Assembly: GCA_025363655.1 (NCBI GenBank)
Contig: JANYDK010000041.1
Span: 1 to 58,378, forward strand
Source of the DNA: Deltaproteobacteria bacterium
Lineage (GTDB): Bacteria > Myxococcota_A > Polyangia > Polyangiales > JADJMO01
Direction: 5' to 3'
Length of the DNA: 58,378 nt
Shown here in pieces: positions 8,637 through 45,823 of this stretch. The position numbers were made by a program, and so were the translations under genes. Under the pieces are notes generated by a model. That model did not search any database and was not told the origin of the DNA. It saw only the letters and a list, made by a program, of their open reading frames with translations. Position 1 is the first letter of the stretch. Each line of letters opens with the position of its first letter.

Positions 8637-11600
8637 ATGAGCAAGAGGCCGAGGAAGTCTCGCCCGCCGCCCGGCGATGGCGATGCCCCGTTGAGCGAAG
8701 GCGCTGTGGAGTCGACGATCAGCGAGCCGCCGCCCTCGGCGCCGCCGACCGATGCGTTCGGCGCAGCGCTGCATGCTGCGAAGTACGCGCCGGAGAACGA
8801 CGACTTCTGGGAGGACGTCGAAGAGAAGGCGCGCGATGCCGATCGTCCCGACGACATTGCCGCCGCGTATCGCTTCGCGCTTCGCAAGGCCACCGATCCG
8901 AGCGTGATTTCCCGACTCGGACAGCGTGCGGTGCGTTTCCACGACGAGTGGTTCGAGGACGCTGCGCCGCTCGCCGAGGTGCTGCTGCGCGTGGTCGACG
9001 TCGACACGACTGCCCTCTGGGCGCACGACCGACTGGTGATGCTCTACACGGTGGCGTCGCGCTGGGACGACCTCCTCGCGCTCTACGATCGTGCGCTCGT
9101 CGCCGAGACCGAGAAGCTCCGTCGCATGCAGCTGCTCGACGAGGCGGCGCACGTCGCCAAGGACTTCGCGGCGCAGCCCGATCGCGCGATCGCCTATCTG
9201 CAGCAACTCCTCATTCTCAAGCCGACCGATGCGCAGCTCGCGACCTCGCTCGAGCGCTTGTTCGAGCGGCAAAAACGGCATCGCGACCTCGTCGAGCTCT
9301 GGACCTCGCGACTGCCGGTGCTCCCACGCGATGGCAAGCTCGCGATGCGATCGCGCATCGCCTCGGCGTGGCTCGAGAAGCTCGACGATCCGGCGCAGGC
9401 GCTGGCAGCCATCGAAGCGCTCATCCCGGACGATCCTCACGACACCTACGTCTGCAAGCTCCTCGAGAAGATCGTCGCCGCGAAGTCGACGAAGCCGGCC
9501 GACAAGCGCAGCGCCATCGCCCTCCTCAAAGAGCGCTACACGACGCAGAAGAAGGGCGCCGAGGTCGTGCGCGTCCTCCAAATCGCCCTCGACACCGACG
9601 ACGTCGGCGAGAAGCGAACGGCGCTCGACGAATTGGCTACGCGCCTCGTCGAGCTCGGGCAACCCGAGCGCGCGATCGAGCACGTGGCGGCTCTTCTCCT
9701 CCTCGATCCGGCGGCAGCGGACGCGACGGCGACGCGCGGGCGAATGCTCGATCTCGCCGATCGCAGCGGTCGTCACGATCGTTATGCAGAAGCGGTCACG
9801 GCGGCTGCTGGTGCTTCTGCCGATCGAGGGGCACGTCTCACGTTGCTCGTCGAGGCGGCACGGGTTCGCGCCGACGTGCTCGCCGACGAGGCCGCGGCCA
9901 TCGATCTCTACGCGCAGGCGCTCGAGCTCGGCGGGGACTCCGAGACCAACCTCGCGGTCGCGCGCCGGCTCGAACAGCTCCTCGCGCACCAAGGTCGCAC
10001 CCTCGAGCAACTCGACGTCTTGGAGAAGCTCGCGCTCCTCGAGCCCGATGCGGCCGAGCGACGGACGACGGCGGGACGCGCGGCGAACCTCGCGACGCAG
10101 CTGCAACAGCACGATCGGGCGCTCGTCTCGTGGGCGCGTCGGCTCGAGCTCGATCCGCGCGATCTCGAGGCGCTCGACGCCACCATCGAGATTCTCGAGC
10201 AGACGGCCAACTGGGAGGCGCTGCTCACGGCATTGCGGCGTCGCGCCGACGCTCGTGAAGACGACGGAGGTCGCCGAGGTGATCTCGCGCGCATCGCTCG
10301 CGTTTCGGCTGAGCGTCTCGGCAAGCCGGACGTCGCGATCGCCGGTTGGCGGGAAATCGAGATGACGTTCGGGCCCGACGCCGAGTCGGTCGACGCGCTC
10401 GCCGAGCTGCTCGCTGGCGGCGGTCGGTTCGCCGAGCTCGTCGCCCACCTCGGCGCCGCGGAAGGGCGCGCGACCGAGCCGCTCCGCCGCGCTGCCCTGC
10501 TCTTCCGCCTCGGCGAAGTCCATCGCTCACACCTCGCCGAGCCTTCGCGCGCGGTCGGACGTTATGCCGAGGCCCTCGCGCTCGATTCATCGCACGCCGG
10601 GGCGCGTGCGGGGCTGCTCGCGCTCCTCGACGATCGCGTCGAAGATCCCTCTGACGTGAGCGCGGCCGAAGCCCTCGCTCGTGCGTTCCACGCCACCGGC
10701 GAATGGCAGAAGACGCTCGAGATCCTCGAGCACCGCCTGGCGCACGCGGAGAACGACAAGGCACGCACCGCGATCCTGCTCGAGGCTGCGACGCTCGAAG
10801 AAGAGCGCGCCGGTGATCGCGCTGCGGCGCTCACCTCGGTGTGTCGCGCTTTTCCCCTGGCGCCTGCGGACGCACACATCGAGATCGAGCTGCTTCGTCT
10901 CGCCTCACGCACCGATGGCTGGACGCAGGTCGTCGACGCCTATCGACGCGCCATTCCGCACGCCGCCGGGGACGCTGCACGGGTCGCCGCCTTGCGGATG
11001 CGACAAGGTAGCATCCTCGAAGAGCACCTCGGGGACTCGAATGCTGCTCTCGCTGCGTTCACCCCGGTCCACGAGGCCTTTGCCGACGACGTCGACGCCG
11101 CCATCGCGGTCGTTCGAGTCGCGGCGCGCGTCGGGCTTTGGGACGTCGTCGCACGCGCGCTCGTCACGTCGGCGCGCGCCCGGATGATCCTCGAAACGGC
11201 GCTGGTGAATGCGGTAGAGACGGCCGCGGAGGCGTCCCTCGCCTGGGATGCCGCGACCAGCGCGCTCGCCGTGGCGGTCGTCTCGACGCAGAACGAGCTC
11301 CAGCCTCGCCTCGCCCGGGAGCTCGAGACGCAGGTCGCGCTCTGGCACCGCGATCGACGCTCCGATCCAGACGCTGCCGAGATGGCGTTGGCGCGCGCCG
11401 TGTCGCACGACGAATCCGATGCGGCGACGTTGCAGATGCTCGCTGTCCTGCAACGCCGTTCGCCCGGCAAGCCGCTATTGGCAACGTTGCTCAGGCTCGC
11501 CGACGCGAGCACGGGCGACCTCGGCGTCCTCTACGAGGCCGCGGTGACCGCGCTCGACGATCTCGCCGACGTCGCTCAAGGGTCGCAAATTCTCGAGCGA

Positions 11601-14600
11601 TTGTTGCGAAACGCGGGCGATCGATGGCGCGCGCAGCAGGCGCTGCCGACCCTGCCGCCGACCTCCGGACCGAGGACCTCCGATGGCCGCGCGCCGACCG
11701 CCGAGTCGCTCTCGACGTGGGCGCTCGATCGACTCGTCGGCATCGAGCTCGAGGCGCAACGTTTCGAGAGAGCGATCGACCTCCTGGTCGAGTACGCCAA
11801 GCTCCCCTTCACCACGCAGCGATCACGAGCGCTGCGCAGCCGCGCGGCAGGCATCGCCGCGGGCGAGCTCGGCGATCCGGCGAGTGCCATCGAGCTCTAC
11901 CGCGGCCTCCTCGAAGAGGACGCGAAGGACAGGGATTCCATCGCGCAGCTCGGCGGTCTCTACCGCGCGACCCAGCGAGCGGCCGATCTCGGCGGCCTCC
12001 TCCGTCACGAGCTCGCGCTCGAGGAAGAGCTCGACAAGCGCCTCGCCATTCGGCTCGAGCTGGCGCAGGTCCTCGGCGACGTCGGCGATCGCGACGCACG
12101 ACTCGCCGCGCTCCGCGAAAACCTCGACGAACGCGCGGGCGATCCGCTCTCGATCGTCGCGCTGACCGCGTTGCTCGAGGCCGAAGCCGAGCACGTCACC
12201 CTCGCCAATCTCCTCACCGAGCAGGCCCTGCGGCTGGAATCGAAGGATGATTCCCACGCAGCAGCGCAGCTCTGGGCCCGCGTGGCTACGCTCGCCGAAG
12301 TGCGGCTCCGCGACACCGATCGGGCGCTCGCATCGCTCCGTCGCGTCGTTGCTCTCGAGGTGACGCTCGACGCGCTCGACGCACTCGCACGTCTACATGG
12401 TGCGCGGGGCGAACACGCGATCGCCGTGGAATGGCTTGAAAAAAGGCTCGCAGGCACACCGGAGGCCGATCGCGCCTCGACGGTCGTGCATCTCGGGGAG
12501 GCCTTTCTCGCGATGGGCGAGCATGCCCGTGCGCTCTCGACGCTCGAGGCCGCGCTCGAAGCCTCGCCCGCCGCGGCCGACGTCCGAGACGTGCTCGGAC
12601 GCATCCATCGCGACGCCAGTGAATGGACGGCGCTCGCGGCATTGCTGGAAGACGGCACACGGCATGCGACCGATGACGGCGTCCGCCTGGCCTATCTCCG
12701 CGAAGCGGCCGAGATTCGGCAGCGTCGACTGGAGGACGCGGCCGGCGCGATTCCGCTCCTCGAAGAAGCGGCCCGACTCGCGCCCAAGGAGCGCGGCGTT
12801 CGTGCGGCGCTCGCCGAAGCGTTGCGCGTCGCCGGTCGCCTCGACGAAGCGCGCGCGCTGCTCGATCAAATCATCGAAGAATACGGGCGACGACGTCCGC
12901 CGGAGCGCGCGCAAGTGCACGTGCAGCTGGCGCAGGTGGCCGAAGCGAAGGGTGATCTCGCCGACGCACTGGCGCAACTCGAGCTCGCATCGAGCATGGA
13001 CATGGGCCACGTGCGCACGCTGCGCATGCTCGGCATCGTCGCTCGTCGCGCCAACGATCTATCGCGCGCCGAGCGTGCCTACCGTGGGCTCCTCATCGTC
13101 GTACGTCGTCCGGCGGCGGCCGCAGAAGCCGGGCTCGGACCGGCGGAGGTGCTCTTCGAACTCTACCGCATCGCCACCGATTTGCAGCAGCCGGACCGCG
13201 CCCACGAGACGCTCGAATCGGCCTTCGACGCCGCCGCGCAGAGCGAAGAGGACGCGACGCGGCTCACCGCCGTCCTCCGCCTCCACGGCGAGGACGAGCT
13301 GCTCCTCCGCGCGCTGAAGACGCGACTGCAGACGGTGCAAGATCCGGCGACCGTCGCCGAAGTGCTCGGTGAGATCAGCACCATCTCCGAGCGCCTCGGA
13401 CGAGTCGACGACGCGATGGAAGCGGTGACGCGCGCGCTCGAACAGATGCCGACCTCGTCGCCTCTGCACGAGGCTGCGCGTGCGCTCGCCGAGCGTGCCG
13501 GTCGCGTCGCCAGCTACGCCGATTTGCTCGAAGACCTCGCCGAGCGCGCACAGGCCGCCGGCGAATCGAGCGCCGCCGCCGATCTACTCCTGCGACTCGG
13601 CGCAATGCGGGAGACCGAGGGGCGCGTGGCCGACGCGGCCGCTGCCTTCGAGCTTGCGGAAACGACGGGTGAACGTCCGGCGGCGGCGCTCCGTGCGCTC
13701 GATCGTCTCTATACGAGCCTCGGCGAACGCGACAAGCTCGAGCGCGTGCTTCGAGCGCGCACGCAGCACGACGACGACGAGCCGGCGGAGAAGACCGACG
13801 CGCTCTATCGACTGGCCGAGCTGCTCTTGCGCGAAGCGGGCACCGCCGACGATGGCGCCGAGATGTTGGCGTGGGCGATCGATCGCGATCCTCAGCTGCC
13901 CCGCGCGGCGACGATGCTCGCGCGCGATCCGTCGCCATCCGCCAAGGTGGCGGCGCTCTTCGAGCGTGTCGCTCGTGCGTCGTCCGACGAGGCTCTGCTC
14001 CTGGACGCTCTCGAGCGACGAGCTCAACACGGCGACGCGACGCAGGACCTGCTCCGTGAAGCGGTCGAGGTCGCGGTCAAGCTGGAGGACGCACGCGCCG
14101 AGAAACTGCTCGCGCGGGCGGTGGCGCTCTCCCAATCGGGCGACGGCAGTCCGGCCGATGGCGTCTGGGCGCTCTCGGGGCTCGCCGAAAGGGCGAAAGC
14201 ACGAGGTCTTCACCTGGTCGCCGTCGAGCATCTGCGGAAGGCGGCGCAGGCCTCGGAGGGTTCGGGCGAAGGCGTCGCCCTCGCGCTCGAAGCGGCAGCG
14301 CTCGCCGCGGGCCCGGCGGAGAACCCGCGTCTCGCGGCCGAGCTCTACGAAGAGCTGCGCGCGCGCGATCCCGGCGATCGTAACGTCTGGCAACCGCTCC
14401 TGACCATCTACCGCACGCTCGGTGAGCGCGCGCGCGTCGATGCGCTCATCGCCGAGACGGTGGAATCGGTCTCCGACGCGACCGAGCGCAACGTGCTTCG
14501 TGTCGAACGCGCGCGTCTCCTCCTCGGCGAGGACGGTCGTCGGGAAGACGCCGTCGCCGCGCTGCGCGAGATCCTCGACGAGGACGCCGAGCACAAAGAA

Positions 14601-16526
14601 GCGACCGACCTGCTCTCCGAGGTACTGGAGAAGGACGGTCGACGCGACGAGCTCGCCGACCTCCTCTCGAGGCAACTCGACGCCGCCCGCAGTCGCGACG
14701 ATCTCCCGGCAATCGTGGCGCTTTCGCTGCGGCTCGGCGCGCTCCTCGGGGCCGCTCGTCGCGAAGAGGCGATGGACGTCTACCGTGCGGCCAGCGGCAC
14801 CGTCGACAACCGCGACGTCTTGCGGGCGCTCGTGGGGCTCTTCGTCGACGCCGACGACGCCAACGATCGCGCCGACACCATGGAACGACTCTTGGTGCTC
14901 GAGGATGGGGACGAAGCCGGCGCGCTCTCGCTCCGACTGGTGAGCATCCGTCGCTCCCTCGAAGACGAAGAGGGCGCGACACGTGCACTGGAAATCGGCT
15001 TCCGCGCCGCGCCGCACGTCACCGCGGTGCGTGAGCAGCTCGAGCGGCTCTACGACGAGCGGGCGGCGTACGAGAAGCTCGCCGACATGATCGTCCACGA
15101 CGGCATGAGGCGCGCGGACAAGAAGGCGGGCGTCGCCAGGCTGCGCGAAGCGGCGAAAATTCAGGCCGAACGTCTCGAGAGCACGATCGCCGCGGCGACG
15201 ACGCTGGAACGAGCGCGCGAGCTCGCACCCGACGACGTGCCGCTCCTCTGTGACTTCGCGCGCATGTGCGAGGCCGCGGGTGATCCCCGACGAGGCGTCG
15301 CTGCGATCAGCGCGTTCCTCGACTCCCACAAGACGTCGAACGTCGTCCGCGTCATGCTCCTCCAGCTGCGCGCCGATTTGCATGGCAAGAGCAACGACGT
15401 CGCCGCCGCGGTCGAAGATCTCGAGGCCGCATATGCGCTCGCGGGGCGAAGCGTCGCTGGCGAGCTCGCCACCGCGCTCGATGCACGACGACACGCCGCG
15501 GCGAGCGCTCGCGACACGGAGACCGAGCGTCACGCGACGATGCGGCTCGTCGAGATCTTCACCGCAATGAACGAGCCTCGCGCCTCCGAAGTGCTCGGCG
15601 AGTGGATCGAGCGCGATCCGGGCGACTTGCAGGCGTTACGGCTGCTCGCGGCGATCCAGGTCAAGGCCAGTGACTGGGCGGGGGCGACGGGTACCTACGG
15701 GCGCATCGTCGAGCGCGAACGGGGCGAACCGCAAATCGAGGCCGCCCTCGAGTTGGCGAAGGCGGCGACCAGCGCCGGAATGCCCGACGCCGCGCGTCCA
15801 GGGCTCGAGCGCGCGTTCTACGCCAACCCCGAAAGCGTGCAGCTGCGCCTTTCGCTGCGCGAGATCTACACCGCGAGCGGGGCCCTCGCCGAGCTCGCGC
15901 GGCTCGCGCTGACCGAGGCCGAGCACGCCGACAACGACGACTTGCGCTTCGAGCGAAGCCTCGAGGCGGGTGATTTGCTGCTCCAAGCGGGTGATCTCGC
16001 CAGTGCGATTCCGCCACTCGAGCTCGCGGTCCGTCTTCGCCCGGCCCACCACGACGCGACGCTGCTCCTCGCCGATGCGCATACCGTCAGTGGAAATGTC
16101 GACGAGGCTATGGCGCTGCTCGTGCCCGCGATCGATCGCCACAAGGGCAAGCGCTCACGTGAAGCGGCCGCGCTGATGCACCGCATGGCCCGCGCGGCCA
16201 ACGCGGGTGGCGGTCACGACGTCGAGCTCTCGTGGCTGCAGAAGGCGCTCGACGCCGACATGCAGAACGGACAAGTCGCCTCCGAGCTCGCCGAGGTGGC
16301 GATGGAGCTGCGACATTGGGAAATCGCGCTCAAGGCGCTGAAGGCGGTCACCCTCCTCAAGACCCCAGGGCCGATGTCGAAGGCGATGGCGAACCTGCGT
16401 CAAGGGATGATCGCTCACCAAACGGGCGACGCCCGACGAGCCGTCGTCCTCGCCAAGACCGCGCTCGCACAAGACCCGAAGCTGACCGAAGCGGCCGAGT
16501 TCCTCAAGCGAATCGGCGGCGGCTAG
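8637..16526 (+). CDS. Giant tetratricopeptide-repeat protein, 2629 aa
   Basis: A single open frame of 7.9 kb. After a Pro-rich N-terminus (about 1-45) the whole protein is helical TPR/SEL-like repeat sequence, with recurring signatures such as AIDLYAQALELGG, RALVSWARRLELDPRDLEAL, AVGRYAEALALDSSHAGAR and AIPPLELAVRLRPAHHDATL. There is no signal peptide, membrane helix or enzymatic motif, so it is expected to be a cytoplasmic scaffold. Composition is dominated by Ala, Leu, Arg, Glu and Asp, and the frame is uninterrupted. Very large TPR proteins of this kind are common in Polyangia but their partners are unknown. It ends 20 bp before the convergent outer-membrane protein gene. Confidence 0.92.
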   Translation: MSKRPRKSRPPPGDGDAPLSEGAVESTISEPPPSAPPTDAFGAALHAAKYAPENDDFWEDVEEKARDADRPDDIAAAYRFALRKATDPSVISRLGQRAVRFHDEWFEDAAPLAEVLLRVVDVDTTALWAHDRLVMLYTVASRWDDLLALYDRALVAETEKLRRMQLLDEAAHVAKDFAAQPDRAIAYLQQLLILKPTDAQLATSLERLFERQKRHRDLVELWTSRLPVLPRDGKLAMRSRIASAWLEKLDDPAQALAAIEALIPDDPHDTYVCKLLEKIVAAKSTKPADKRSAIALLKERYTTQKKGAEVVRVLQIALDTDDVGEKRTALDELATRLVELGQPERAIEHVAALLLLDPAAADATATRGRMLDLADRSGRHDRYAEAVTAAAGASADRGARLTLLVEAARVRADVLADEAAAIDLYAQALELGGDSETNLAVARRLEQLLAHQGRTLEQLDVLEKLALLEPDAAERRTTAGRAANLATQLQQHDRALVSWARRLELDPRDLEALDATIEILEQTANWEALLTALRRRADAREDDGGRRGDLARIARVSAERLGKPDVAIAGWREIEMTFGPDAESVDALAELLAGGGRFAELVAHLGAAEGRATEPLRRAALLFRLGEVHRSHLAEPSRAVGRYAEALALDSSHAGARAGLLALLDDRVEDPSDVSAAEALARAFHATGEWQKTLEILEHRLAHAENDKARTAILLEAATLEEERAGDRAAALTSVCRAFPLAPADAHIEIELLRLASRTDGWTQVVDAYRRAIPHAAGDAARVAALRMRQGSILEEHLGDSNAALAAFTPVHEAFADDVDAAIAVVRVAARVGLWDVVARALVTSARARMILETALVNAVETAAEASLAWDAATSALAVAVVSTQNELQPRLARELETQVALWHRDRRSDPDAAEMALARAVSHDESDAATLQMLAVLQRRSPGKPLLATLLRLADASTGDLGVLYEAAVTALDDLADVAQGSQILERLLRNAGDRWRAQQALPTLPPTSGPRTSDGRAPTAESLSTWALDRLVGIELEAQRFERAIDLLVEYAKLPFTTQRSRALRSRAAGIAAGELGDPASAIELYRGLLEEDAKDRDSIAQLGGLYRATQRAADLGGLLRHELALEEELDKRLAIRLELAQVLGDVGDRDARLAALRENLDERAGDPLSIVALTALLEAEAEHVTLANLLTEQALRLESKDDSHAAAQLWARVATLAEVRLRDTDRALASLRRVVALEVTLDALDALARLHGARGEHAIAVEWLEKRLAGTPEADRASTVVHLGEAFLAMGEHARALSTLEAALEASPAAADVRDVLGRIHRDASEWTALAALLEDGTRHATDDGVRLAYLREAAEIRQRRLEDAAGAIPLLEEAARLAPKERGVRAALAEALRVAGRLDEARALLDQIIEEYGRRRPPERAQVHVQLAQVAEAKGDLADALAQLELASSMDMGHVRTLRMLGIVARRANDLSRAERAYRGLLIVVRRPAAAAEAGLGPAEVLFELYRIATDLQQPDRAHETLESAFDAAAQSEEDATRLTAVLRLHGEDELLLRALKTRLQTVQDPATVAEVLGEISTISERLGRVDDAMEAVTRALEQMPTSSPLHEAARALAERAGRVASYADLLEDLAERAQAAGESSAAADLLLRLGAMRETEGRVADAAAAFELAETTGERPAAALRALDRLYTSLGERDKLERVLRARTQHDDDEPAEKTDALYRLAELLLREAGTADDGAEMLAWAIDRDPQLPRAATMLARDPSPSAKVAALFERVARASSDEALLLDALERRAQHGDATQDLLREAVEVAVKLEDARAEKLLARAVALSQSGDGSPADGVWALSGLAERAKARGLHLVAVEHLRKAAQASEGSGEGVALALEAAALAAGPAENPRLAAELYEELRARDPGDRNVWQPLLTIYRTLGERARVDALIAETVESVSDATERNVLRVERARLLLGEDGRREDAVAALREILDEDAEHKEATDLLSEVLEKDGRRDELADLLSRQLDAARSRDDLPAIVALSLRLGALLGAARREEAMDVYRAASGTVDNRDVLRALVGLFVDADDANDRADTMERLLVLEDGDEAGALSLRLVSIRRSLEDEEGATRALEIGFRAAPHVTAVREQLERLYDERAAYEKLADMIVHDGMRRADKKAGVARLREAAKIQAERLESTIAAATTLERARELAPDDVPLLCDFARMCEAAGDPRRGVAAISAFLDSHKTSNVVRVMLLQLRADLHGKSNDVAAAVEDLEAAYALAGRSVAGELATALDARRHAAASARDTETERHATMRLVEIFTAMNEPRASEVLGEWIERDPGDLQALRLLAAIQVKASDWAGATGTYGRIVERERGEPQIEAALELAKAATSAGMPDAARPGLERAFYANPESVQLRLSLREIYTASGALAELARLALTEAEHADNDDLRFERSLEAGDLLLQAGDLASAIPPLELAVRLRPAHHDATLLLADAHTVSGNVDEAMALLVPAIDRHKGKRSREAAALMHRMARAANAGGGHDVELSWLQKALDADMQNGQVASELAEVAMELRHWEIALKALKAVTLLKTPGPMSKAMANLRQGMIAHQTGDARRAVVLAKTALAQDPKLTEAAEFLKRIGGG

Positions 16527-34833: not shown

Positions 34834-36036
34834 CTAGATCACGCCGAGCTTCTTGCCGCAGCGTGTGAAGGCGTCGATGGCGCGGTCGATTTGCTCGTGC
34901 GTGTGTTGGGCCGAGAGCTGGACGCGGATGCGCGCTTCGCCTTTGGGGACCACCGGGAAGAAGAAGCCGATGACGTAGATGCCCTCTCCTAGCAGCGCCG
35001 CCGACAGCTCTTGCGAGAGGCGCGCGTCGCCGAGCATGACGGGGACGATCGGGTGGATGCCCGGCTTGAGCGTGAAGCCCGCCTTGCTCATGCCTTCGCG
35101 AAAGCGCGCGGCGTTTTCCATCACGCGATCGCGGAGCTCGGTCGAGCGACCGAGGAGCTCGAGGACGGCGAGCGAGGCGCCGGCGATCGCCGGGGGTATC
35201 GAGTTGGAGAAGAGGTACGGACGCGAACGCTGACGGAGGAGCTCGACGATCTCGCGTTTGCCGGTGGTGAAGCCGCCCGCCGCGCCGCCGAGGGCCTTGC
35301 CCAGCGTCGAGGTCATGACGTCGATGCGCGTCTGTACGCCGCAGTGCTCGGGCGTGCCGCGGCCGGTCTTGCCGATGAACCCGCTCGCGTGCGAGTCGTC
35401 GACCATCACCATCGCGCTGTATTTCTCGGCCAAATCGCAGATCTTGTCGAGCTTGGCGAGGTAGCCGTCCATCGAGAAGACGCCGTCGGTGGCGATCATG
35501 CGGAGGCGCTTGCCGGCGGTGGCGACGAGGGCCTTCTCGAGCGCTTCGAGATCACCGTTGGGATAGCGGTGGCGCTCGGCTTTGCACAAACGAATGCCGT
35601 CGATGATCGAGGCGTGGTTGAGCGCGTCGGAGATGATCGCGTCTTCTTCGCCGAGGAGCGTCTCGAAGAGCCCGCCGTTGGCGTCGAAGCACGAGCTGTA
35701 GAGGATGGTGTCTTCGGTGCCGAAGAAGGTGGAGATCTTCGCTTCGAGCTGCTTGTGGATGTCTTGGGTGCCGCAGATGAAGCGCACCGAGCTCATGCCG
35801 AAGCCGTGCGAATCGATGGCCGCGTGCGCGCCAGCGATGACCTCGGGGTGTGACGAGAGGCCGAGGTAATTGTTCGCGCAGAAGTTGAGGACCGGCTTCC
35901 TCTCCGGGCTGCCCTGCAGCTGGACCTGCACCTCGGCCGCTTGCGGCGAGACGATCAGGCGCTCGGTCTTGAAGAGACCGGCCTCGCGAATTTCCTGCAG
36001 CGTCGCGGCGTAGACGTCCTTGGCGCGGGTGAACAT
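34834..36036 (-). CDS. kbl: Glycine C-acetyltransferase (2-amino-3-ketobutyrate CoA ligase)
   Basis: A PLP enzyme that cleaves 2-amino-3-ketobutyrate with CoA into glycine and acetyl-CoA, the second step of threonine catabolism. It has 400 residues, against 398 in E. coli Kbl. Typical stretches are [49 protein letters not shown] and the PLP Lys in [14 protein letters not shown]. The ATG read from 36036 is supported by homologous length and by a TAGAGT box 8 nt upstream. It is divergent from the threonine dehydrogenase gene with 115 bp between, which places the two consecutive enzymes of the pathway side by side. Confidence 0.96.
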
Positions 36037-36151: not shown

Positions 36152-37168
36152 ATGTCGAAGCCCGTCGTGCTCATCACCGGCGCCAACGGAGAAATCGGGC
36201 GCTCGCTCCTCAAGCGGCTCCACACCGACGGGCGCTACCGCGTCGTCACGGTCGACCTGACGCCGCTGCCCGAGTCGTACCGAGGCTTCTGCCTCGAGAC
36301 GTACGCCGGCAACATCATGGACCGCTATCTCCTCGATCAGATCGCGGCGCACCATGAAATCGAGGTCGTTTTTCACCTCGCGGCGCTCCTCTCGACGCGG
36401 GGCGAGCGCGACCCGGATCTCGCGCACCAGGTCAACGTCGAGGGCACGCTCCACCTCCTGCGGATGGCGCAGAACCAGTCGGGCCGGCTCGGGCGCGCGG
36501 TGCGCTTCCTCTTTCCCAGCTCCATCGCCGTCTACGGGCTACCGAACGTCGAAGAAAAGAAGAAGGCCGGTCGCGTCGTCGAGGAAGAGTGGTGCGTGCC
36601 GATCACGATGTACGGCTGCAACAAGCTCTACTGCGAGCACCTCGGTCGTTACTTCACGAACCACTTCCGTCAGCTCGGCGCCCTCAGTGACGTTTCACGC
36701 TTGGATTTTCGAGCTCTTCGCTTCCCCGGCCTCATCTCGGCGGAGACGGTGCCGACCGGCGGGACGAGCGACTTCGGTCCCGAGATGATCCACGCCGCGG
36801 CGCAGAAGCTCCCCTACTCCTGCTTCGTCGGCCCGGAGGCGCAGATTCCCTTCATGACCATGAACGACGCCACGCGCTCGCTCCTCATGCTCCTCGAAGC
36901 GAAGAAAGAGGCGCTCACCTCGACGGTCTACAACGTCAGCGGCTTCTCGGTGTCGGCGCAGCAAATCGCCGATCGCGTTCGAATGGCTTTTCCCGACGCC
37001 AAGATCGACTGGAAGCTCGACGAGGTGCGCGCGCGCATCGTCGACTCCTGGCCCGAGGACATCGACGACGGCCGCGCGCGCCGCGACTGGGGATGGAAGC
37101 CGACCTTCGAATTCGAGCGTGCCTTCGACGAGTACCTCCTGCCGACGATTCGGCAGCGGTACGCCTGA
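36152..37168 (+). CDS. tdh: L-threonine 3-dehydrogenase, SDR type
   Basis: An extended short-chain dehydrogenase of 338 residues that oxidises threonine to 2-amino-3-ketobutyrate with NAD+. The NAD site is [13 protein letters not shown], and the catalytic YxxxK is [11 protein letters not shown] after FPSSIAVYG. The SDR-type TDH signature is visible in [20 protein letters not shown], where the well-known homologues read RYPGLIS followed by a Gly-Gly-Thr-Thr loop. It is unrelated to the zinc-dependent Tdh of E. coli. Its position opposite kbl confirms the pathway. Only 16 bp follow before the TssM-like gene, so the catabolic enzyme heads a longer transcript with apparently unrelated genes. Confidence 0.92.
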
Positions 37169-37184
37169 GCGAGAGCGTAGACCG

Positions 37185-38468
37185 GTGCTCTTCGTCTACC
37201 TCGGCGCGATTCTCCTCTGCTCGATCCTCTGGGTCCTCGGGGTGTTCCTCTATTGGGACTTCCTCTTCATCCTGCTCCTCAATCTCGGCATCGGCCTCGT
37301 CGTGCTCGTCGCCTGGTTCATCGCGCGTAAGCGCGCAGCGAGCGCGGCCGAGGCGCTCGAACGACAGATCATGAGCGGCGCCGCCACCCAGATGGCCAAC
37401 ACCCGACCCGATCGACGCGGCGAAATCGAGGCCATGCGCGACGAGATGCAGAAGGGCTTCGCAGTCCTCCGCGATCACAAGGACGGCGGTCGGGCGCTCG
37501 CGACCATCCCCTGGTACGCGATCATCGGCCCGCCCGGAGCCGGCAAGAGCACAGCGTTGCGACAATCGGGGCTCGATTTCCCGATGCAACGTGAAGGCAA
37601 GAGCGCCACCCGCGGCGTCGGTGGCACGCGCAACTGCGAGTGGTGGTTCTCCAACGAGGCGGTGCTCCTCGACACCGCCGGGCGTTGGACGGTCGAGCAG
37701 GACGATCGCGAAGAGTGGCTGGCGTTCCTCGACATGTTGAAGAAATTCCGGCCGAGCGCGCCGATCAACGGCGTCATCGTGGCGGTCAGCGTCTCCGATC
37801 TCGTCAGTCAGTCCGAAGAACAGCTCGAGGAGCTGGCGAAGGCGATTCGGGCGCGCATCGACGAGATGATGGTGCGGCTGGCGATCGTCGTCCCGGTCTA
37901 CGTCATGATCACCAAGGTCGACCTCGTCGCCGGCTTCGTCGAGTTCTTCGGCGACCTGAAGAAGAGCGAGCGCGGCCGCGTCTTCGGCGCCACCTTCCGC
38001 CTCGACGCCGACAGGCGCGAACCGGCGGCCATGGTCGGACGCGAGATCGATCTCTTGCTCCAGGCAGCCCACGCGCGCGCCATCGTCCGACTTGCCGCCG
38101 AGCGTGATTTCTCGGCCCGTCCGCGCATTCTTCAGTTTCCCCTCGAGCTCAAGCTTCTGCGCGATCCGGTGTCGTATTTCACCGGCGTCTTGATGCGACC
38201 CAATGCGTACCAAGAGACGCCGATCCTGCGCGGCTTCTACCTCACGAGCGGCACCCAAGAAGGTCGCCCGCTCGATCGCGTCATCGGCGGGATGATGCAG
38301 GCCTTCGGTCTCGCCGCGCCTCCGGGCCCGACGAATCAAGCCGCGCAGTACGTCGCGCCCGGCACCCAAGTCGAGCACAAGAGCTACTTCGTCACCGACG
38401 TCTTTCGCAAGGTGGCCTTCGGAGACAAGGGCGTCGCCTCGCGTCGGAAGTTCCGGAAGACGCTCTGA
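37185..38468 (+). CDS. TssM/IcmF-like membrane GTPase lacking the periplasmic half
   Basis: A 427-residue protein matching only the N-terminal cytoplasmic part of type VI secretion TssM (IcmF), which normally has about 1100-1300 residues. Two membrane helices at the start (LFVYLGAILLCSILWVLG, LFILLLNLGIGLVVLVAWF) are followed by a P-loop GTPase domain: Walker A GPPGAGKST near 115, DTAGRW near 163, VIVAVSVSDLV, and ITKVDLVAGF near 244. It continues through LRGFYLTSGTQEGRP and FVTDVFRKVAFGDKG and stops in a basic tail (SRRKFRKTL), just where TssM would cross the membrane a third time. The stop overlaps the yaeQ start (TGATG), so this end is the natural one, not a window or sequencing edge. Start GTG. 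Confidence 0.88.
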   Translation: MLFVYLGAILLCSILWVLGVFLYWDFLFILLLNLGIGLVVLVAWFIARKRAASAAEALERQIMSGAATQMANTRPDRRGEIEAMRDEMQKGFAVLRDHKDGGRALATIPWYAIIGPPGAGKSTALRQSGLDFPMQREGKSATRGVGGTRNCEWWFSNEAVLLDTAGRWTVEQDDREEWLAFLDMLKKFRPSAPINGVIVAVSVSDLVSQSEEQLEELAKAIRARIDEMMVRLAIVVPVYVMITKVDLVAGFVEFFGDLKKSERGRVFGATFRLDADRREPAAMVGREIDLLLQAAHARAIVRLAAERDFSARPRILQFPLELKLLRDPVSYFTGVLMRPNAYQETPILRGFYLTSGTQEGRPLDRVIGGMMQAFGLAAPPGPTNQAAQYVAPGTQVEHKSYFVTDVFRKVAFGDKGVASRRKFRKTL

Positions 38469-39022
38469 TGGCAGTCCCGACGACGCGCCTCGAGTACAAG
38501 ATCACGCTCTCTCACGTCGATCGCGGCATCGACTTGCCCGAGACGGCGGTGTTCGTCTCGCGCCATCCTTCCGAGACGCTCGAGCACGTGACGCTGCGCG
38601 TGCTCGCGTGGTGCCTCTTCCATGAAGAGGGCATCTCCTTCGGGCCCGGGCTCTCCAGCGACGGCACGGCCGATCTGTGGGTGCACGATCTCACCGGTCG
38701 ACTGACGAGTTGGATCGAGTGTGGCGCGACCAAGTGGGAGCATCTCCGACGCGGGCTGCAGCAGAACTCGGGCGCCAAGGGACACGTCGTCTTCGTCCAG
38801 CCGCGCAAACGTGAAGACCTGGAAGCAGAGATCGCCGCAGCACCCCACGCCAAAGAACGCGCGCAGGTGACGCTCTGGTCGGTCGATCCGGCGCTCGTCG
38901 CGGCGCTCGCCGCCCGGGAAGATCGTCGTCAACGCTGGTCGGTCACCATCGTCGGCGATCATTTCTACGTCGAGGCCTTCGGTGAAAACGTCGATGGCGA
39001 GGTCGCTCGCGCCGACGCCTGA
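38468..39022 (+). CDS. yaeQ: YaeQ family protein
   Basis: A 184-residue YaeQ protein, a family with a PD-(D/E)XK nuclease-like fold whose cellular role is not established. Conserved features are LSHVDRGIDLPETAVFVSRH, RHPSETLEHVTLRVLAWCLF, a Gly/Leu stretch around ISFGPGLSSDG, DLWVHDLTGR and WIECGATKWEHLRRG. The length equals that of the E. coli protein. The start codon overlaps the stop of the TssM-like gene (TGATG), implying translational coupling. The ABC transporter gene follows 38 bp later. Confidence 0.92.
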   Translation: MAVPTTRLEYKITLSHVDRGIDLPETAVFVSRHPSETLEHVTLRVLAWCLFHEEGISFGPGLSSDGTADLWVHDLTGRLTSWIECGATKWEHLRRGLQQNSGAKGHVVFVQPRKREDLEAEIAAAPHAKERAQVTLWSVDPALVAALAAREDRRQRWSVTIVGDHFYVEAFGENVDGEVARADA

Positions 39023-39060
39023 GTCGAGTGGGCAGCGGCGAGCATCGATATGACGGCGAG

Positions 39061-40905
39061 ATGAGTCCCACGGAAAAACCGAAGAACGAGGCGCCGCGCT
39101 CGCGCCTGCGAGACACCGCGCGCCTCCTCGGTCACGTCCGTCGCACGCTGGCGATGGTGGCGTTGGTCGGCCGCTGGCTCCTCGGCGTGCTGGTGATCGC
39201 GCAGGTTCTCGACGCGCTCGCGATCATCGCCATCGCCTGGGTCGGCAAGCGCATCGTCGACGCCATCGCCCTCGGCCATCCGCTCCGCGAGGCGCTCACT
39301 TGGGTCGCCGTCGAGCTCGCGCTGGTGGCCGCCAAGGCGCTCATCGCGCAGCTCGGCTCGTATGCGCAGCTCGTCCTCCGCGGCGGGCTCGGCCTCCACG
39401 TCAACCTGCTGATCCTCGACAAGGCCGCGCGCGTCTCCTACGCGAAGTTCGAGGATCCGATCTTCATGAACGCGATGACGCAGGCACGCCGCGAGGCCTC
39501 GTCGCGTCCGCTCGATCTCGTGAACCAGATGCTCTCGCTCTGTCGGCATGCGATCACGCTCGCCGGCTTCGCTGCCTTGCTCTGGTCGCTCGGACCGTGG
39601 GCGGTGCTGACGTTGGTGGCGACGGCGCTCCCGCCCTTCTGGGCCGAGGCTCGCCACGCGCGTGAGTCTTTCACGCTGCAGCGCGCCCGCACGATGCGCA
39701 ACCGCAAGAGCTTCTACCTCGAAGCGGTGCTCACCACCGAGCAGACCGTGAAAGAGGTGAAGCTCTTCCAGCTCGCGCATTGGCTCCGTGAGCTCTATCG
39801 AGAAATCCTCGAGGGCTTCCAGAAGGAGGAGGTCACGCTCGCCCGACGCCGCGCGTTTTCGGCCTATTTCTTTGGCCTCCTAGCGACATTGGCACTTTAT
39901 GGAACGTACGGTTGGATCGTCTCGCGCGCGGTCTCTGGCGTCATCACTCTCGGGAGCATGACGCTCTACGTGATGGTCCTCCGCCAAGGTCAGACGACGT
40001 TGCAGGCTGCCCTCTCGTCGGTGGCGCGTGCCTATGAAGACGATCTCTTCATGACCAACCTCGAGGAGTTCCTCGCCGTCCCCGAAGAAGAACCCGACGC
40101 CGCCGAAGACCTGGTCGACGACGCCGAAGGAAGCGAAGAGAACGCCGCGCCGCCATCGCTCGCCCTCGAGAACGTCACCTTCAAGTATCCGGGGAGCGAG
40201 CGCGAGGCGCTCTCGAACATCAACCTCACCATCGGCGCCGGCGAGACGGTCGCGCTGGTCGGCCGCAACGGCGCCGGCAAGACGACGATCATCAAGCTCT
40301 TGGTCGGCCTCCATCGCCCCACCAGCGGCCGCATCCTCGTCGATGGCGCCGACGTCGCGACCATGTCGATGAGCGCGCTCCGCAAGCGCGTCGGCGTCAT
40401 TTTCCAAGACTTCGCGCGCCTGCAGCTCCCCATGCGCGACAACGTCGGCGTCGGCTGGCTCCCCCAACGCGAGGACGACCGCGCGATCGACGCCGCCATC
40501 GACGACGCCGGCGCCCGCGAAGTCGTCGACCGCCTCCCCCAAGGTCTCGCCACGCCGCTCGGACGCGCCTTCGGTGGCGACGACCTCAGCGGCGGTCAAT
40601 GGCAACGCGTCGCCCTCGCACGCGCCTTCATGCGCAAGAGCCGCATCCTCGTCCTCGACGAGCCCACCGCCGCCATGGACGCCGAGGCCGAGCACGAGAT
40701 TTTTCAGCGCTTTCGCGATTTGAAACGAGACCGCACGGCCATCCTCATCACCCACCGCTTCTCGACGGTCCGCATGGCCGATCGCATCGTCGTCTTCGAG
40801 GGCGGACGCATCGTCGAAGAAGGAAGCCACGACGTGCTCCTCGAGCTGAACGGACAGTACGCGAAGATGTTTCGGTTGCAGGCGGCGGGGTACTTGGAGA
40901 GCTGA
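39061..40905 (+). CDS. ABC exporter, fused permease and ATPase
   Basis: A 614-residue half-transporter of the MsbA/type IV exporter class. The membrane domain (about 30-340) has helices near 35-60, 75-100, 160-200 and 270-320. A charged linker with many Glu and Asp follows, then the ATPase: Walker A GRNGAGKTT near 401, Q-loop IFQDFARLQ, signature LSGGQWQR near 508, Walker B ILVLDEPTAAMD near 529 and switch His in ITHRFSTVR near 563. All catalytic residues are present, so it should be active as a homodimer or with a partner outside the window. A GTG at 39028 would give 11 extra residues. Cargo (lipid, peptide or drug) cannot be told. Confidence 0.93.
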   Translation: MSPTEKPKNEAPRSRLRDTARLLGHVRRTLAMVALVGRWLLGVLVIAQVLDALAIIAIAWVGKRIVDAIALGHPLREALTWVAVELALVAAKALIAQLGSYAQLVLRGGLGLHVNLLILDKAARVSYAKFEDPIFMNAMTQARREASSRPLDLVNQMLSLCRHAITLAGFAALLWSLGPWAVLTLVATALPPFWAEARHARESFTLQRARTMRNRKSFYLEAVLTTEQTVKEVKLFQLAHWLRELYREILEGFQKEEVTLARRRAFSAYFFGLLATLALYGTYGWIVSRAVSGVITLGSMTLYVMVLRQGQTTLQAALSSVARAYEDDLFMTNLEEFLAVPEEEPDAAEDLVDDAEGSEENAAPPSLALENVTFKYPGSEREALSNINLTIGAGETVALVGRNGAGKTTIIKLLVGLHRPTSGRILVDGADVATMSMSALRKRVGVIFQDFARLQLPMRDNVGVGWLPQREDDRAIDAAIDDAGAREVVDRLPQGLATPLGRAFGGDDLSGGQWQRVALARAFMRKSRILVLDEPTAAMDAEAEHEIFQRFRDLKRDRTAILITHRFSTVRMADRIVVFEGGRIVEEGSHDVLLELNGQYAKMFRLQAAGYLES

Positions 40906-40931
40906 GCAAGAGATGCTGATCTCTTCCTCGC

Positions 40932-41480
40932 ATGCTCCGCTCGCTCGCGCGCTCGTTCGTGGTCACCGTCGCCGTCACCTCGGCGGCCTGTCGCAAAGAT
41001 CCTGACACGGCGCGGCCCGATTTGCCGAGCCCCAAGCCCGACGGCATCGCGAGCACGAGCGACAGCGCGAGCACGACCGTCGCCAGCGTCGAGCCGCCGC
41101 CCGGGCCGACGAAGAAGCGCAAGCGCTCGGCCGACGCCGGGGCGCCGTGGAAGATTCCGAAAGGGCCGACGCCCTCGTGGAGCGATCTCGATCCGCGGAA
41201 TTCGACGACCGCGGATGGCCACGCGATCTTCGTTCGCGATGACGACATCTGCTACTTCGAAGTGCCGATGAAGAAGCCGCCGAAGATGATGCCGACGGGG
41301 TTTCGGCAGATGGATCAAGTGCCGATCGATTGTCCGCCCGAGCTCGACGATCCGGCCTGGGACGAGTGCAGCTATTCGACGTTGATGGCGCCGAAGACGC
41401 CACCAGGCGACTGCTATTGCTTCTCGCTCGGGGGCAATCCGCCGCCTCCGCCGCGCCTCGTCCATTGCCCGAAAAAATGA
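40932..41480 (+). CDS. Lipoprotein of unknown function, 182 aa
   Basis: Unrecognised. The signal (SLARSFVVTVAVTSAAC) ends in a lipobox Cys. A Ser/Pro/Lys-rich linker of about 70 residues precedes a small Cys-containing domain: DGHAIFVRDDDICYFEVPMK, then VPIDCPPELDDPAWDEC and GDCYCFSLGGN, with six Cys likely paired. It lies 26 bp after the ABC exporter and its stop overlaps the next start (ATGA), so it belongs to the same operon. Similar small Cys-containing lipoproteins are frequent in this group, without known role. Confidence 0.75.
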   Translation: MLRSLARSFVVTVAVTSAACRKDPDTARPDLPSPKPDGIASTSDSASTTVASVEPPPGPTKKRKRSADAGAPWKIPKGPTPSWSDLDPRNSTTADGHAIFVRDDDICYFEVPMKKPPKMMPTGFRQMDQVPIDCPPELDDPAWDECSYSTLMAPKTPPGDCYCFSLGGNPPPPPRLVHCPKK

Positions 41481-42088
41481 GCGCGATTCTCCTCGCAGCC
41501 GTGCTCGCTGCCCCTTCGGTGACGGCGGCTCCCGAGAGCACCGAAGAGCTGCGGGCGCTCGAGCAAGTGGTCGCCGACGACGCGGCACGATGTCGGCGGT
41601 GGTACCTCGGATGGCTAGCCGGATTCGCGCTCTCCAGCGTCGGTGAGCTCGTCTATGCGCGCGACTTCGCCGACGAGGGACATCGCATCGATGCGCGTGT
41701 CGGCGCCTTCATGAGCGGGCTCGGGTTCGTCTCGACCGCCGTGTTGCCTCCGCCGCAGGTCTTCTACGATCGACCGAGCCGCATCGATGCGGCCTTGCTC
41801 CACGAGCGCCTCGAGGACGCCGCCGATGCGGAGAAACTCGGCCGTTCGTGGCTACCCTACGTGCTCGGGGTGGCCGCCAACGGCGCCGCCGGCGCGTATC
41901 TCGCGTTTCACCACGATCGCAAGGTGTCGGGGCTTCTCCAACTGGCGGTCGGGAGCGGCGTCAGCATTCTCAAGATTCAGCTGCTGCCGACGACGGCGCT
42001 CGACAAGCGCAATGCGAGCGCGAGCGCTTCGATCACGCCGCTGATCGGCACCAATTTCGTCGGCGTCGGCTACGCGATGACGCTCTAG
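41477..42088 (+). CDS. Exported membrane-associated protein, 203 aa
   Basis: Unrecognised. The start overlaps the preceding stop (ATGA) and gives a short signal peptide (MSAILLAAVLAAPSVTA). Several weakly hydrophobic Gly/Ala segments follow (YLGWLAGFALSSVGELV, AFMSGLGFVSTAVLPPP, YVLGVAANGAAGAYLAF, GLLQLAVGSGVSILKIQLL), so it may lie in the inner membrane or form a small outer-membrane structure; the ending ITPLIGTNFVGVGYAMTL has the look of terminal beta-strands. It converges with the kinase gene 18 bp away. Confidence 0.7.
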   Translation: MSAILLAAVLAAPSVTAAPESTEELRALEQVVADDAARCRRWYLGWLAGFALSSVGELVYARDFADEGHRIDARVGAFMSGLGFVSTAVLPPPQVFYDRPSRIDAALLHERLEDAADAEKLGRSWLPYVLGVAANGAAGAYLAFHHDRKVSGLLQLAVGSGVSILKIQLLPTTALDKRNASASASITPLIGTNFVGVGYAMTL

Positions 42089-42106
42089 CGATCGGCTCTG
42101 TCGCGG

Positions 42107-43333
<1,227 letters not shown>

Positions 43334-43339
43334 TGCGCG

Positions 43340-43345
43340 AGAGTA
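43340..43345 (-). promoter_or_regulatory. TACTCT, candidate -10 box of the 43333 kinase
   Basis: On the minus strand it lies 6 nt before the GTG at 43333. It decides the start chosen for the kinase. Confidence 0.35.
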
Positions 43346-43393
43346 CACCGAGCCTCACGCTCGGAGATCGTGAAGAATCGGTTTCAAACCAAT

Positions 43394-45715
43394 TCAAACC
43401 TGCGCGGCGCGACGCCCGAGCACGAAGAGAAAGAGCAGCGCCGCGAGCGCATAACAACCGACACCGAGGAGGAACGCGAACGAGAGGCCGCGATGAATCG
43501 CCACGTAGATGGCGACGGCGGTGCCAGCCACGCCGAGCATGCCATTCACGCCCCAGCACCAAGAGACGAGCCCGGCGTCGTCGGGGAGCGTCTTCATCCC
43601 CAGCGGCAAGGGCATCCCGAGGAGCATGCCGAGGGGCGCGATGGTGAGCACGACGCCGGCTGTGCGCACGCCGATGGGGAACGCAACGAGCCAAGCCGCG
43701 ATGCGCTCGCTCCCGAGTAGCGCCAGCAGGAGCACGACGAGGAGCGCGCCGAAGACGAGCTTCACACGTGAAGGATCGATCTTGGCGGAGAGGAGCGCAC
43801 CGGCGCCGGTCGAGAGCAGGAGCGACGAGAGCACCGCGGCGAGAGAGAGCGTGGGGTTGCCGACGACGAGGATGCTCTGCTGCAGGAGCTTCATCTCGAC
43901 GAGCATGAAACCGAGCCCGAGTAGGGAGAAATAGGCCGTCGGCGCCACCAGCGCGCCCTTCTTCGGGAGGCGTCGCAAGAGGACGACCAGCGGCACGACG
44001 AGGAACGCACCGACGAGCGCGAAGACGGTCACCAGGCTCTGGCGGAGGACCTCGACGTCTTTGCCGGCCTTCGCCCCGGGGCGCGCGCGAAGGAAGAAAT
44101 AGAACGGCCGATCGTCGGTGTTCGGCTCCATGTCGAAGGGGAACGACGCGTAGACGGCAGCGCGATCTTTCCCGGTGACGAGCTTCTCGATGTCGGGATC
44201 GCCACCGGTTCGACCGGGCGTGTAGGCGTTGCCGAAGTGGAGCCGCGCGCGCACCTCGTCGGTCTTGGCGATCTCTTCGGCGGTGAAGGGCGTGCGCTTG
44301 ACCATCACTTGCGTCAGCTCGCGACGCAGGAAATACGGGCTCGCCACCGAGGATGCGATGATGTGCTTCTCGGGCTCGGTGATGCCGCTCTGGCGCAACG
44401 CTTCGACGACGATGCCGACGCCCTTGATGGCGTCGTACTCGGGGTCGTGCCGCGCGCGGAGGAACGAGAGAATGCCGCCGTCGTTGGTGCGCGCGAGGTA
44501 ATCGCGGAAGGCCTCGACCGTGTAGAGATAGTTTTCGGTGAGCGCGAAGGCGCCGGCGCCGGTGGCTGCACCCGAGTCGACCCAGGTGACGGTGACGACG
44601 TCGTACTGCGCCGGATCGCGCTTCACCCAAGTGCGCGCGTTCTCGTAGTGGATGTCGATGCCGGGCAATTGATAAGGCCGGCCCGACCACCAGGCGAAGT
44701 CCTCGTTGACGATCTTGCCGACGAGCGGGTTGACCTCGATGCCGACCACCGGAGCTTTTCCGAAGTGCTTCGCCATCAAGACGTCGAGCCCGCCGCCGAC
44801 GCCGAGCACCAGCGTCGAGCCCGTCGGCCGCAGGTAGTGCGGGAGCGCGGCGATGTCGTACTCGAGGTAATCGAGCTTCGAGACGTCGCGATCGGGCATG
44901 TATTGAATCTGCGTGCCGGCGACGCCTTCGATCATCAAATCGAACTGCACTTCATGCTTCGCCGGGTACGTCTCGGAGAGGCCCCAGGTGCAAAATAGGC
45001 CCCATTTCACGACCACGCGGGAGAAGTCGTTCCAACGATCTTTGGCGATGCCGACGACCTTGGAGTTGCGGATGACCGGGAGCGAGAAGGTGTCGTCGTC
45101 GATCCACTTCGTCTTGCCGATGCCGAAGGCGGCGACGAGGAAGACGACGGCGATGATCGCGGGAACGCGCTTCTTCGCTTGCAGGAGAAAGAGGGGCGCT
45201 GCGAGGCCTGCGAGCGCGGCGATGGCGAACATCGCCTTCGGGGCGGCGACGCGATCGAGGAGGAGCACCGCGACGACACACCCGATCGCAGCGCCGAAGA
45301 GGTCGATCGCGTACCAGCGGGAGAACTCGCTCTTGCGCGCCTCGAGCACCACCGAGACGATCACGCCGCCGACGAGGAACGGGAGAAAGAGCGCGCCGAA
45401 GACGTAGAGGTGCGCCATTTGCCCGGCACGGCCCTCTTCGCCGAGCGTCGGGTAGTTCTTCAGGTAATAGAGGGTGGCGACGGCGATCGAGAGCGAGAAG
45501 AGCACCGAGGCGTGCCCGACGCGCTCGTCCGGATCGACGTCGACCTTCCCCCGCAGCGTCACCCAGAGCGCGCCGGCGCCGAGGCCGAGCATCGCCACGC
45601 TGATGCTCATGAACGCGAAGTAGTAGCCAATCGTCCCGGAAAAGACGCGTGTGAGGGCGATCTCCATCAAGAGGAGCGAGGCGGTGACGATGCCGAAGGC
45701 GATGCGCGCGAGCAT
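43394..45715 (-). CDS. Membrane-embedded spermidine-synthase-like protein, 773 aa
   Basis: A large protein with membrane helices at both ends and a spermidine-synthase-like methyltransferase fold between. About seven helices occupy residues 1-220 (for example IAFGIVTASLLLMEIALTRV, YFAFMSISVAMLGLGAGALW), and about seven more occupy 550-770. The central domain has the SAM/dcSAM-binding glycine motif LVLGVGGGLDVLMAKHFG near residue 300, GIEVNPLVGKIV, and the catalytic-region YDVVTVTWVDSGAATGAG. Families of this build are annotated spermidine synthases, but few have been shown to make polyamines. The ATG read from 45715 was chosen over a TTG at 45760 because it starts directly at the first helix. 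Confidence 0.85.
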   Translation of the reverse strand: MLARIAFGIVTASLLLMEIALTRVFSGTIGYYFAFMSISVAMLGLGAGALWVTLRGKVDVDPDERVGHASVLFSLSIAVATLYYLKNYPTLGEEGRAGQMAHLYVFGALFLPFLVGGVIVSVVLEARKSEFSRWYAIDLFGAAIGCVVAVLLLDRVAAPKAMFAIAALAGLAAPLFLLQAKKRVPAIIAVVFLVAAFGIGKTKWIDDDTFSLPVIRNSKVVGIAKDRWNDFSRVVVKWGLFCTWGLSETYPAKHEVQFDLMIEGVAGTQIQYMPDRDVSKLDYLEYDIAALPHYLRPTGSTLVLGVGGGLDVLMAKHFGKAPVVGIEVNPLVGKIVNEDFAWWSGRPYQLPGIDIHYENARTWVKRDPAQYDVVTVTWVDSGAATGAGAFALTENYLYTVEAFRDYLARTNDGGILSFLRARHDPEYDAIKGVGIVVEALRQSGITEPEKHIIASSVASPYFLRRELTQVMVKRTPFTAEEIAKTDEVRARLHFGNAYTPGRTGGDPDIEKLVTGKDRAAVYASFPFDMEPNTDDRPFYFFLRARPGAKAGKDVEVLRQSLVTVFALVGAFLVVPLVVLLRRLPKKGALVAPTAYFSLLGLGFMLVEMKLLQQSILVVGNPTLSLAAVLSSLLLSTGAGALLSAKIDPSRVKLVFGALLVVLLLALLGSERIAAWLVAFPIGVRTAGVVLTIAPLGMLLGMPLPLGMKTLPDDAGLVSWCWGVNGMLGVAGTAVAIYVAIHRGLSFAFLLGVGCYALAALLFLFVLGRRAAQV

Positions 45716-45823
45716 GGGGCGGTGCAGTCCTAGGCCAGATGGGCAACGAAATGCACACAAAATGAGCTGGTTGAGGCGTCATGTGCTTCACTTCGAGGGG
45801 GGACGGGGAAGTCGGAGCTCGCC

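Follow-up and report, generated by a model that had tools for sequence, protein, structure and literature searches.

On the basis of its sequence, the 427-residue protein described here is a truncated paralogue of TssM, the inner-membrane protein of the T6SS, and it is encoded outside the T6SS cluster of its genome. It is predicted from modelling to be a complete small-GTPase domain carried on two membrane helices, with no periplasmic part. The window, that is, the whole stretch of 58,378 nucleotides that was analysed, lies on one contig of a genome of 9.0 Mb, which is assembled in 150 contigs and is 96% complete.

The short protein and its predicted fold

The reading frame of the short tssM begins with GTG and ends with TGA, as first described (Table 1). 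It is free of internal stops and frameshifts, its motifs are intact, and its base composition is of the coding type (GC3 0.84). In a profile search, the protein matched the TssM model TIGR03348 with 427 bits (cut-off 388, E 1e-127), and the match is confined to positions 3-421 of the 1168 in the model. The sole Pfam domain found in it is PF14331, the IcmF N-terminal domain (276 bits). By these two matches, the protein has the N-terminal transmembrane pair and the cytoplasmic NTPase domain of a TssM. Its score of 71 bits against the type IVB IcmF model NF038226 is far below the cut-off of 1000. It is also not a TagP, as the PF00691 peptidoglycan-binding domain is absent from it and its end is a membrane boundary. 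The earlier note had described two N-terminal helices and intact GTPase motifs, and both are borne out by the hydropathy, the motifs in the translation and the profile matches.

An AlphaFold2 model, built with 27 sequences (pLDDT 82, pTM 0.79), contains a helical stalk and a GTPase fold besides the two membrane helices; the final strand and helix of the fold lie at residues 347-353 and 404-414. Through structural alignment (VIA-align) against the PDB, the Arf, Arl and Rag small GTPases were matched at a Z of about 12 (rmsd 2.7-3.4, 150-165 residues aligned). The small-GTPase fold spans model residues of about 107-417, and thus the domain closes before the stop. With its G1, G3 and G4 motifs, the protein is predicted to belong to the small-GTPase (TRAFAC) fold and would be expected to bind nucleotide. 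A sequence search for a close solved structure gave none. PADLOC gave no match for the short TssM or the neighbouring YaeQ, and an anti-phage defence role for the two was therefore rejected.

Table 1. Features of the short tssM and its neighbouring genes, in positions of the window
Feature	Position	Strand	Remark
kbl (glycine C-acetyltransferase), conserved beside tdh in relatives	34834..36027	-	ATG from alignment with relatives
tdh-like NAD-dependent epimerase/dehydrogenase, beside divergent kbl and leading the probable transcript	36158..37168	+	
Putative short TssM paralogue of 427 aa, with two TM helices and predicted complete cytoplasmic GTPase domain, without TM3 or periplasmic domain	37185..38468	+	
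N-terminal transmembrane helices (two), residues 1-49	37185..37331	+	hydropathy; model helices 2-22, 26-72
Walker A / G1 motif GPPGAGKST, residues 115-123	37527..37553	+	
G3 motif DTAGR, residues 163-167	37671..37685	+	
G4 motif TKVD, residues 243-246	37911..37922	+	
Probable G5 motif TSGTQ, residues 354-358, at the strand completing the GTPase fold	38244..38258	+	G5 assigned tentatively
Basic tail and stop, where TM3 begins in full-length TssM	38439..38468	+	alignment
yaeQ (PF07152), divergent subtype	38468..39022	+	
MsbA-like ABC exporter	39061..40905	+	ATG at 39061, GTG at 39028 also possible; family gene, at other loci in relatives

The gene end and the ordinary T6SS of the genome

When aligned with the TssMs of the class, the C-terminus of the short protein, GDKGVASRRKFRKTL (VASRRKFRKTL before the stop), is the basic linker lying directly before TM3. 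The basic tail noted earlier in place of the TssM continuation is thus confirmed. The coupling of the stop to yaeQ likewise stands, the TGA and the ATG sharing one A at 38468 (TGATG, a 1-base overlap). TM3 and the periplasmic region of about 700 residues (PF06761, PF06744 and the TssJ-binding end) are absent from the short protein. A search of the window with the C-terminal half of TssM returned no significant match, and no such half is present downstream in any frame. Across the genome, PF06744 (IcmF_C) and PF06761 (IcmF-related) occur once each, and in either case the match lies within the intact full-length TssM of contig C132. Therefore, the short tssM is not one part of a split TssM, as had been suggested; an orphan C-terminal half exists in neither the genome nor the window, and the separate gene for the missing periplasmic domain that was to be looked for is not found in the genome outside that full-length TssM.

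A local nonsense or frameshift mutation was the event by which the earlier note would have been overturned, and this was rejected as well. Homologues do continue as full-length proteins, but here yaeQ comes next, with no TssM remains in any frame. As yaeQ rather than a broken C-terminal half lies downstream, the gene is taken to be a truncated paralogue and not the product of a fresh nonsense or frameshift mutation. Near the stop (38466), no slippery poly-A tract is present in the sequence.

The T6SS cluster with a full-length TssM, which the earlier note proposed to look for in this genome, is present on C132 and contains tagH/fha, tssH, tssK, tssL, tssM, tagF, tssA, tssB and tssC. Its TssM (1227 aa, gene at C132:21270) is the only other TssM in the genome, and residues 4-1220 of it match TIGR03348 positions 3-1167 of 1168. 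DotU/TssL is found in one copy in the genome. With one intact TssM and T6SS, and no C-terminal half elsewhere, the short gene is thus a truncated paralogue that the genome has in addition to one ordinary T6SS. The two TssMs are only 53-56% identical. The short one is, therefore, neither a collapsed nor a duplicated fragment of the C132 protein, and a recent copying from it was also rejected on this ground.

The hcp genes nearest to the short tssM are two on the same contig at 3-904, 36 kb away. These are in tandem (PF05638; 3-335 and 404-904, both on the minus strand), and the first is cut by the left end of the contig. The genome has four hcp genes, and the only other one at a contig edge is truncated at the left end of C132. 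The two hcp genes of the window's contig (C114) and the truncated one of C132 face each other in a compatible orientation, and therefore the T6SS contig may adjoin that of the window across an hcp array. No direct or exact overlap of the two contigs was found at the hcp ends.

Neighbourhood, distribution and constraint

Outside the T6SS cluster, the short tssM has tdh, yaeQ, the ABC exporter and kinase genes as its neighbours. It lies 16 bp from tdh and overlaps yaeQ, after which comes the exporter. Such tight spacing fits a single transcript, and the four genes probably share one. The earlier note had also described this transcript as one with no T6SS genes; the spacing agrees with it, but the separation from T6SS genes is qualified by the two hcp genes on the same contig. 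A promoter scan detected no sigma-70-like site, such a scan being uninformative for a high-GC genome. Elsewhere in the window, a very long TPR-repeat protein of 2629 aa is encoded at 8637-16526 (+), and 43394-45760 (-) encodes a 788-aa protein rich in hydrophobic stretches, for which Pfam gave no match at E 0.001.

The genes kbl and tdh are found together in four family relatives (kbl 80-81% and tdh 78-80% identical; the kbl of G001 is cut by a contig end), and neither the short tssM nor this yaeQ lies beside them in any of the four. In G004, the 3' end of tdh faces a kinase gene with 55% identity to the kinase gene at 42107-43348 of the window. The 4.9-kb block at 37169-42106, comprising the short tssM, yaeQ, the ABC exporter and two small genes, is absent in G004 between tdh and this convergent kinase gene; it is, therefore, either an insertion here or a loss in G004. 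The exporter has orthologues in the family at other loci, 68-81% identical. Since tdh and the exporter find their orthologues in the same family at 68-81%, the contig belongs to this genome. The YaeQ is of a rare subtype: its closest relatives, at 52-54% identity, come from only three genomes, all of another family, against about 33% for most YaeQs of the order. The gene calls around these three contain no adjacent TssM or exporter.

At an E threshold of 1e-30, TssM-like matches came from 114 of the 317 genomes of the class, and a scan of GTDB species genomes supplied 80 more TssM loci. Among the 137 loci in which the frame was followed, a stop near this point occurs in the window gene alone; the rest run on or reach a contig end. 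Judged by coordinates, the other short frames from the search of the class run up to contig edges, except in G019 and G141; G019 was rejected as a second short form, its gene being full-length and interrupted by a change of frame. Across 377 sampled genomes of the phylum, no other short form was met. The same truncated form with its neighbours, which the earlier note suggested seeking in related genomes, is absent from the rest of the 137 loci and at kbl-tdh in the four family relatives, and the short form is known from one genome. A literature search on solo cytoplasmic TssM proteins found none. The T6SS is itself patchy in the family: one is present in this genome and in G004, but the other three relatives (G001, G002 and G003) have no TssM match.

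A family-level search brought out an orphan TssM-like protein of 660 aa in G141 (L179:3362-5344, minus strand), a genome of the same order, outside any T6SS cluster. It resembles the short TssM in being a C-terminally shortened orphan, but it differs in retaining TM3 and about 200 periplasmic residues, in its degenerate G motifs (DTTGEY, TRCD) and in being only 28% identical. Weak second PF14331 matches of a strength similar to this orphan occur in G146 and G148-G152 and may be its orthologues; G149 and G152 have no other TssM match. A sampling of 380 kb of G152 for an orphan of the G141 type did not find it.

In the tree, the branch of the short TssM measures 0.83 against 0.17-0.18 for the TssMs of the family, and its placement as their sister was not rejected by the AU test (p 0.34). 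It retains 85 of the 93 near-invariant TssM positions. The ratio of change at slow versus fast sites is 2.36, which is within the range of 0.6-3.07 given by long-branch full-length TssM controls, and thus there is no sign of extra relaxation.

Known short TssMs and the possible roles of this one

The C-terminus of TssM is known to reach TssJ, with the cytoplasmic part contacting TssL and the baseplate (PMC10433429). In A. tumefaciens, the Walker A motif of TssM matters, and ATP binding and hydrolysis recruit Hcp (PMC3953482). The window protein shares the two N-terminal helices and the P-loop NTPase domain with the TssM/IcmF/ImpL family (TIGR03348), and differs from it in having no TM3, no PF06761 or PF06744 and no place in a T6SS cluster. 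Citrobacter rodentium requires full-length and truncated TssM in a set ratio, with the truncated form in excess (PMC4256274). Its TssM1[1-807], like the TssM3 variant of Yersinia pseudotuberculosis, is a shortened TssM beside a full-length one, with the TssJ-binding end missing. However, TssM1[1-807] arises from one gene by transcriptional slippage and, at 807 aa, retains TM3 and most of the periplasmic domain, whereas the window protein has neither and is the product of a separate gene. Thus, both lengths are encoded in the present genome as two genes, and at the short one there is no slippery poly-A with a C-terminal domain in another frame downstream. TagP is another TssM derivative, in which the periplasmic part is replaced (PMC10433429, PMC5363822). 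Though it too is without the normal TssM C-terminal domain, TagP (e.g. in the P. putida K1-T6SS) carries a peptidoglycan-binding domain and lies inside a T6SS cluster, whereas the window protein ends after the GTPase domain.

The reading preferred here, tentatively and at somewhat less than an even chance, is that the short paralogue is an accessory GTPase of the inner membrane, with the T6SS membrane complex as its target. It would reside in the inner membrane, bind and hydrolyse nucleotide, and touch either the cytoplasmic side of the complex (TssL and the baseplate) or the full-length TssM. Without crossing the periplasm, it would tune assembly by mixing or competing with parts of the complex or by assembling them in advance, in a mode likened to that of the short variant required in C. 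rodentium. Its location outside the T6SS cluster, the probable transcript with tdh, yaeQ and the exporter, and its occurrence in one genome are points against such a role, as is the retention of TM3 and most of the periplasmic domain by the Citrobacter variant. The location and the probable sharing of a transcript with yaeQ and the exporter would suit a cytoplasmic TssM module that has left the T6SS and works with these two as a nucleotide-dependent membrane anchor or regulator, a repurposing that the earlier note had already raised and that is judged here to be somewhat unlikely. The second shortened orphan, in G141, and the weak matches of G149 and G152 are in line with it; nevertheless, that orphan is distant in sequence and keeps TM3, the constraint pattern is still TssM-like, and the operon neighbours are not together elsewhere, the exporter and the closest YaeQs lying at other loci with no recognised TssM neighbour. 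The TssM-like constraint and the intact T6SS are no less compatible with an accessory T6SS role than with repurposing.

The gene could also be a recent non-functional remnant: recombination beside yaeQ would have removed the 3' part of a duplicated or transferred tssM, which is now decaying or carried along. This is judged somewhat unlikely. Its occurrence in one genome, within the block absent from G004, speaks for a remnant, while the unbroken frame, the intact motifs, the clean end at a domain boundary, the coding-type GC3, the absence of residual C-half DNA in the window and the lack of excess change at slow sites speak against it. The constraint pattern argues against a long decay, but a single sequence cannot date the truncation, and the measured constraint could predate it. 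A misjoin that set the 5' part of a TssM before yaeQ is very improbable, even with an assembly in 150 contigs and a unique arrangement, as the identity to the C132 TssM is only 53-56%, the flanking tdh and exporter find their best matches in the same family, and the frame runs cleanly into yaeQ.

It is a speculative and rather improbable extension that, in this order, GTPases standing alone in the inner membrane on two helices have arisen repeatedly from the cytoplasmic halves of TssM, either as regulators setting the place or frequency of T6SS assembly or in the service of a non-T6SS exporter. The role of the TssM NTPase domain is unsettled in the field: the A. tumefaciens protein needs its Walker A motif, and some other TssMs are reported to have none. 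With a natural protein that consists of just this domain and its membrane helices, in a genome that also encodes an ordinary TssM, the cytoplasmic function could be examined separately from the periplasmic one. If the short paralogue is indeed an accessory of the T6SS, it would add to the few cases of a shortened TssM working with the full-length protein.
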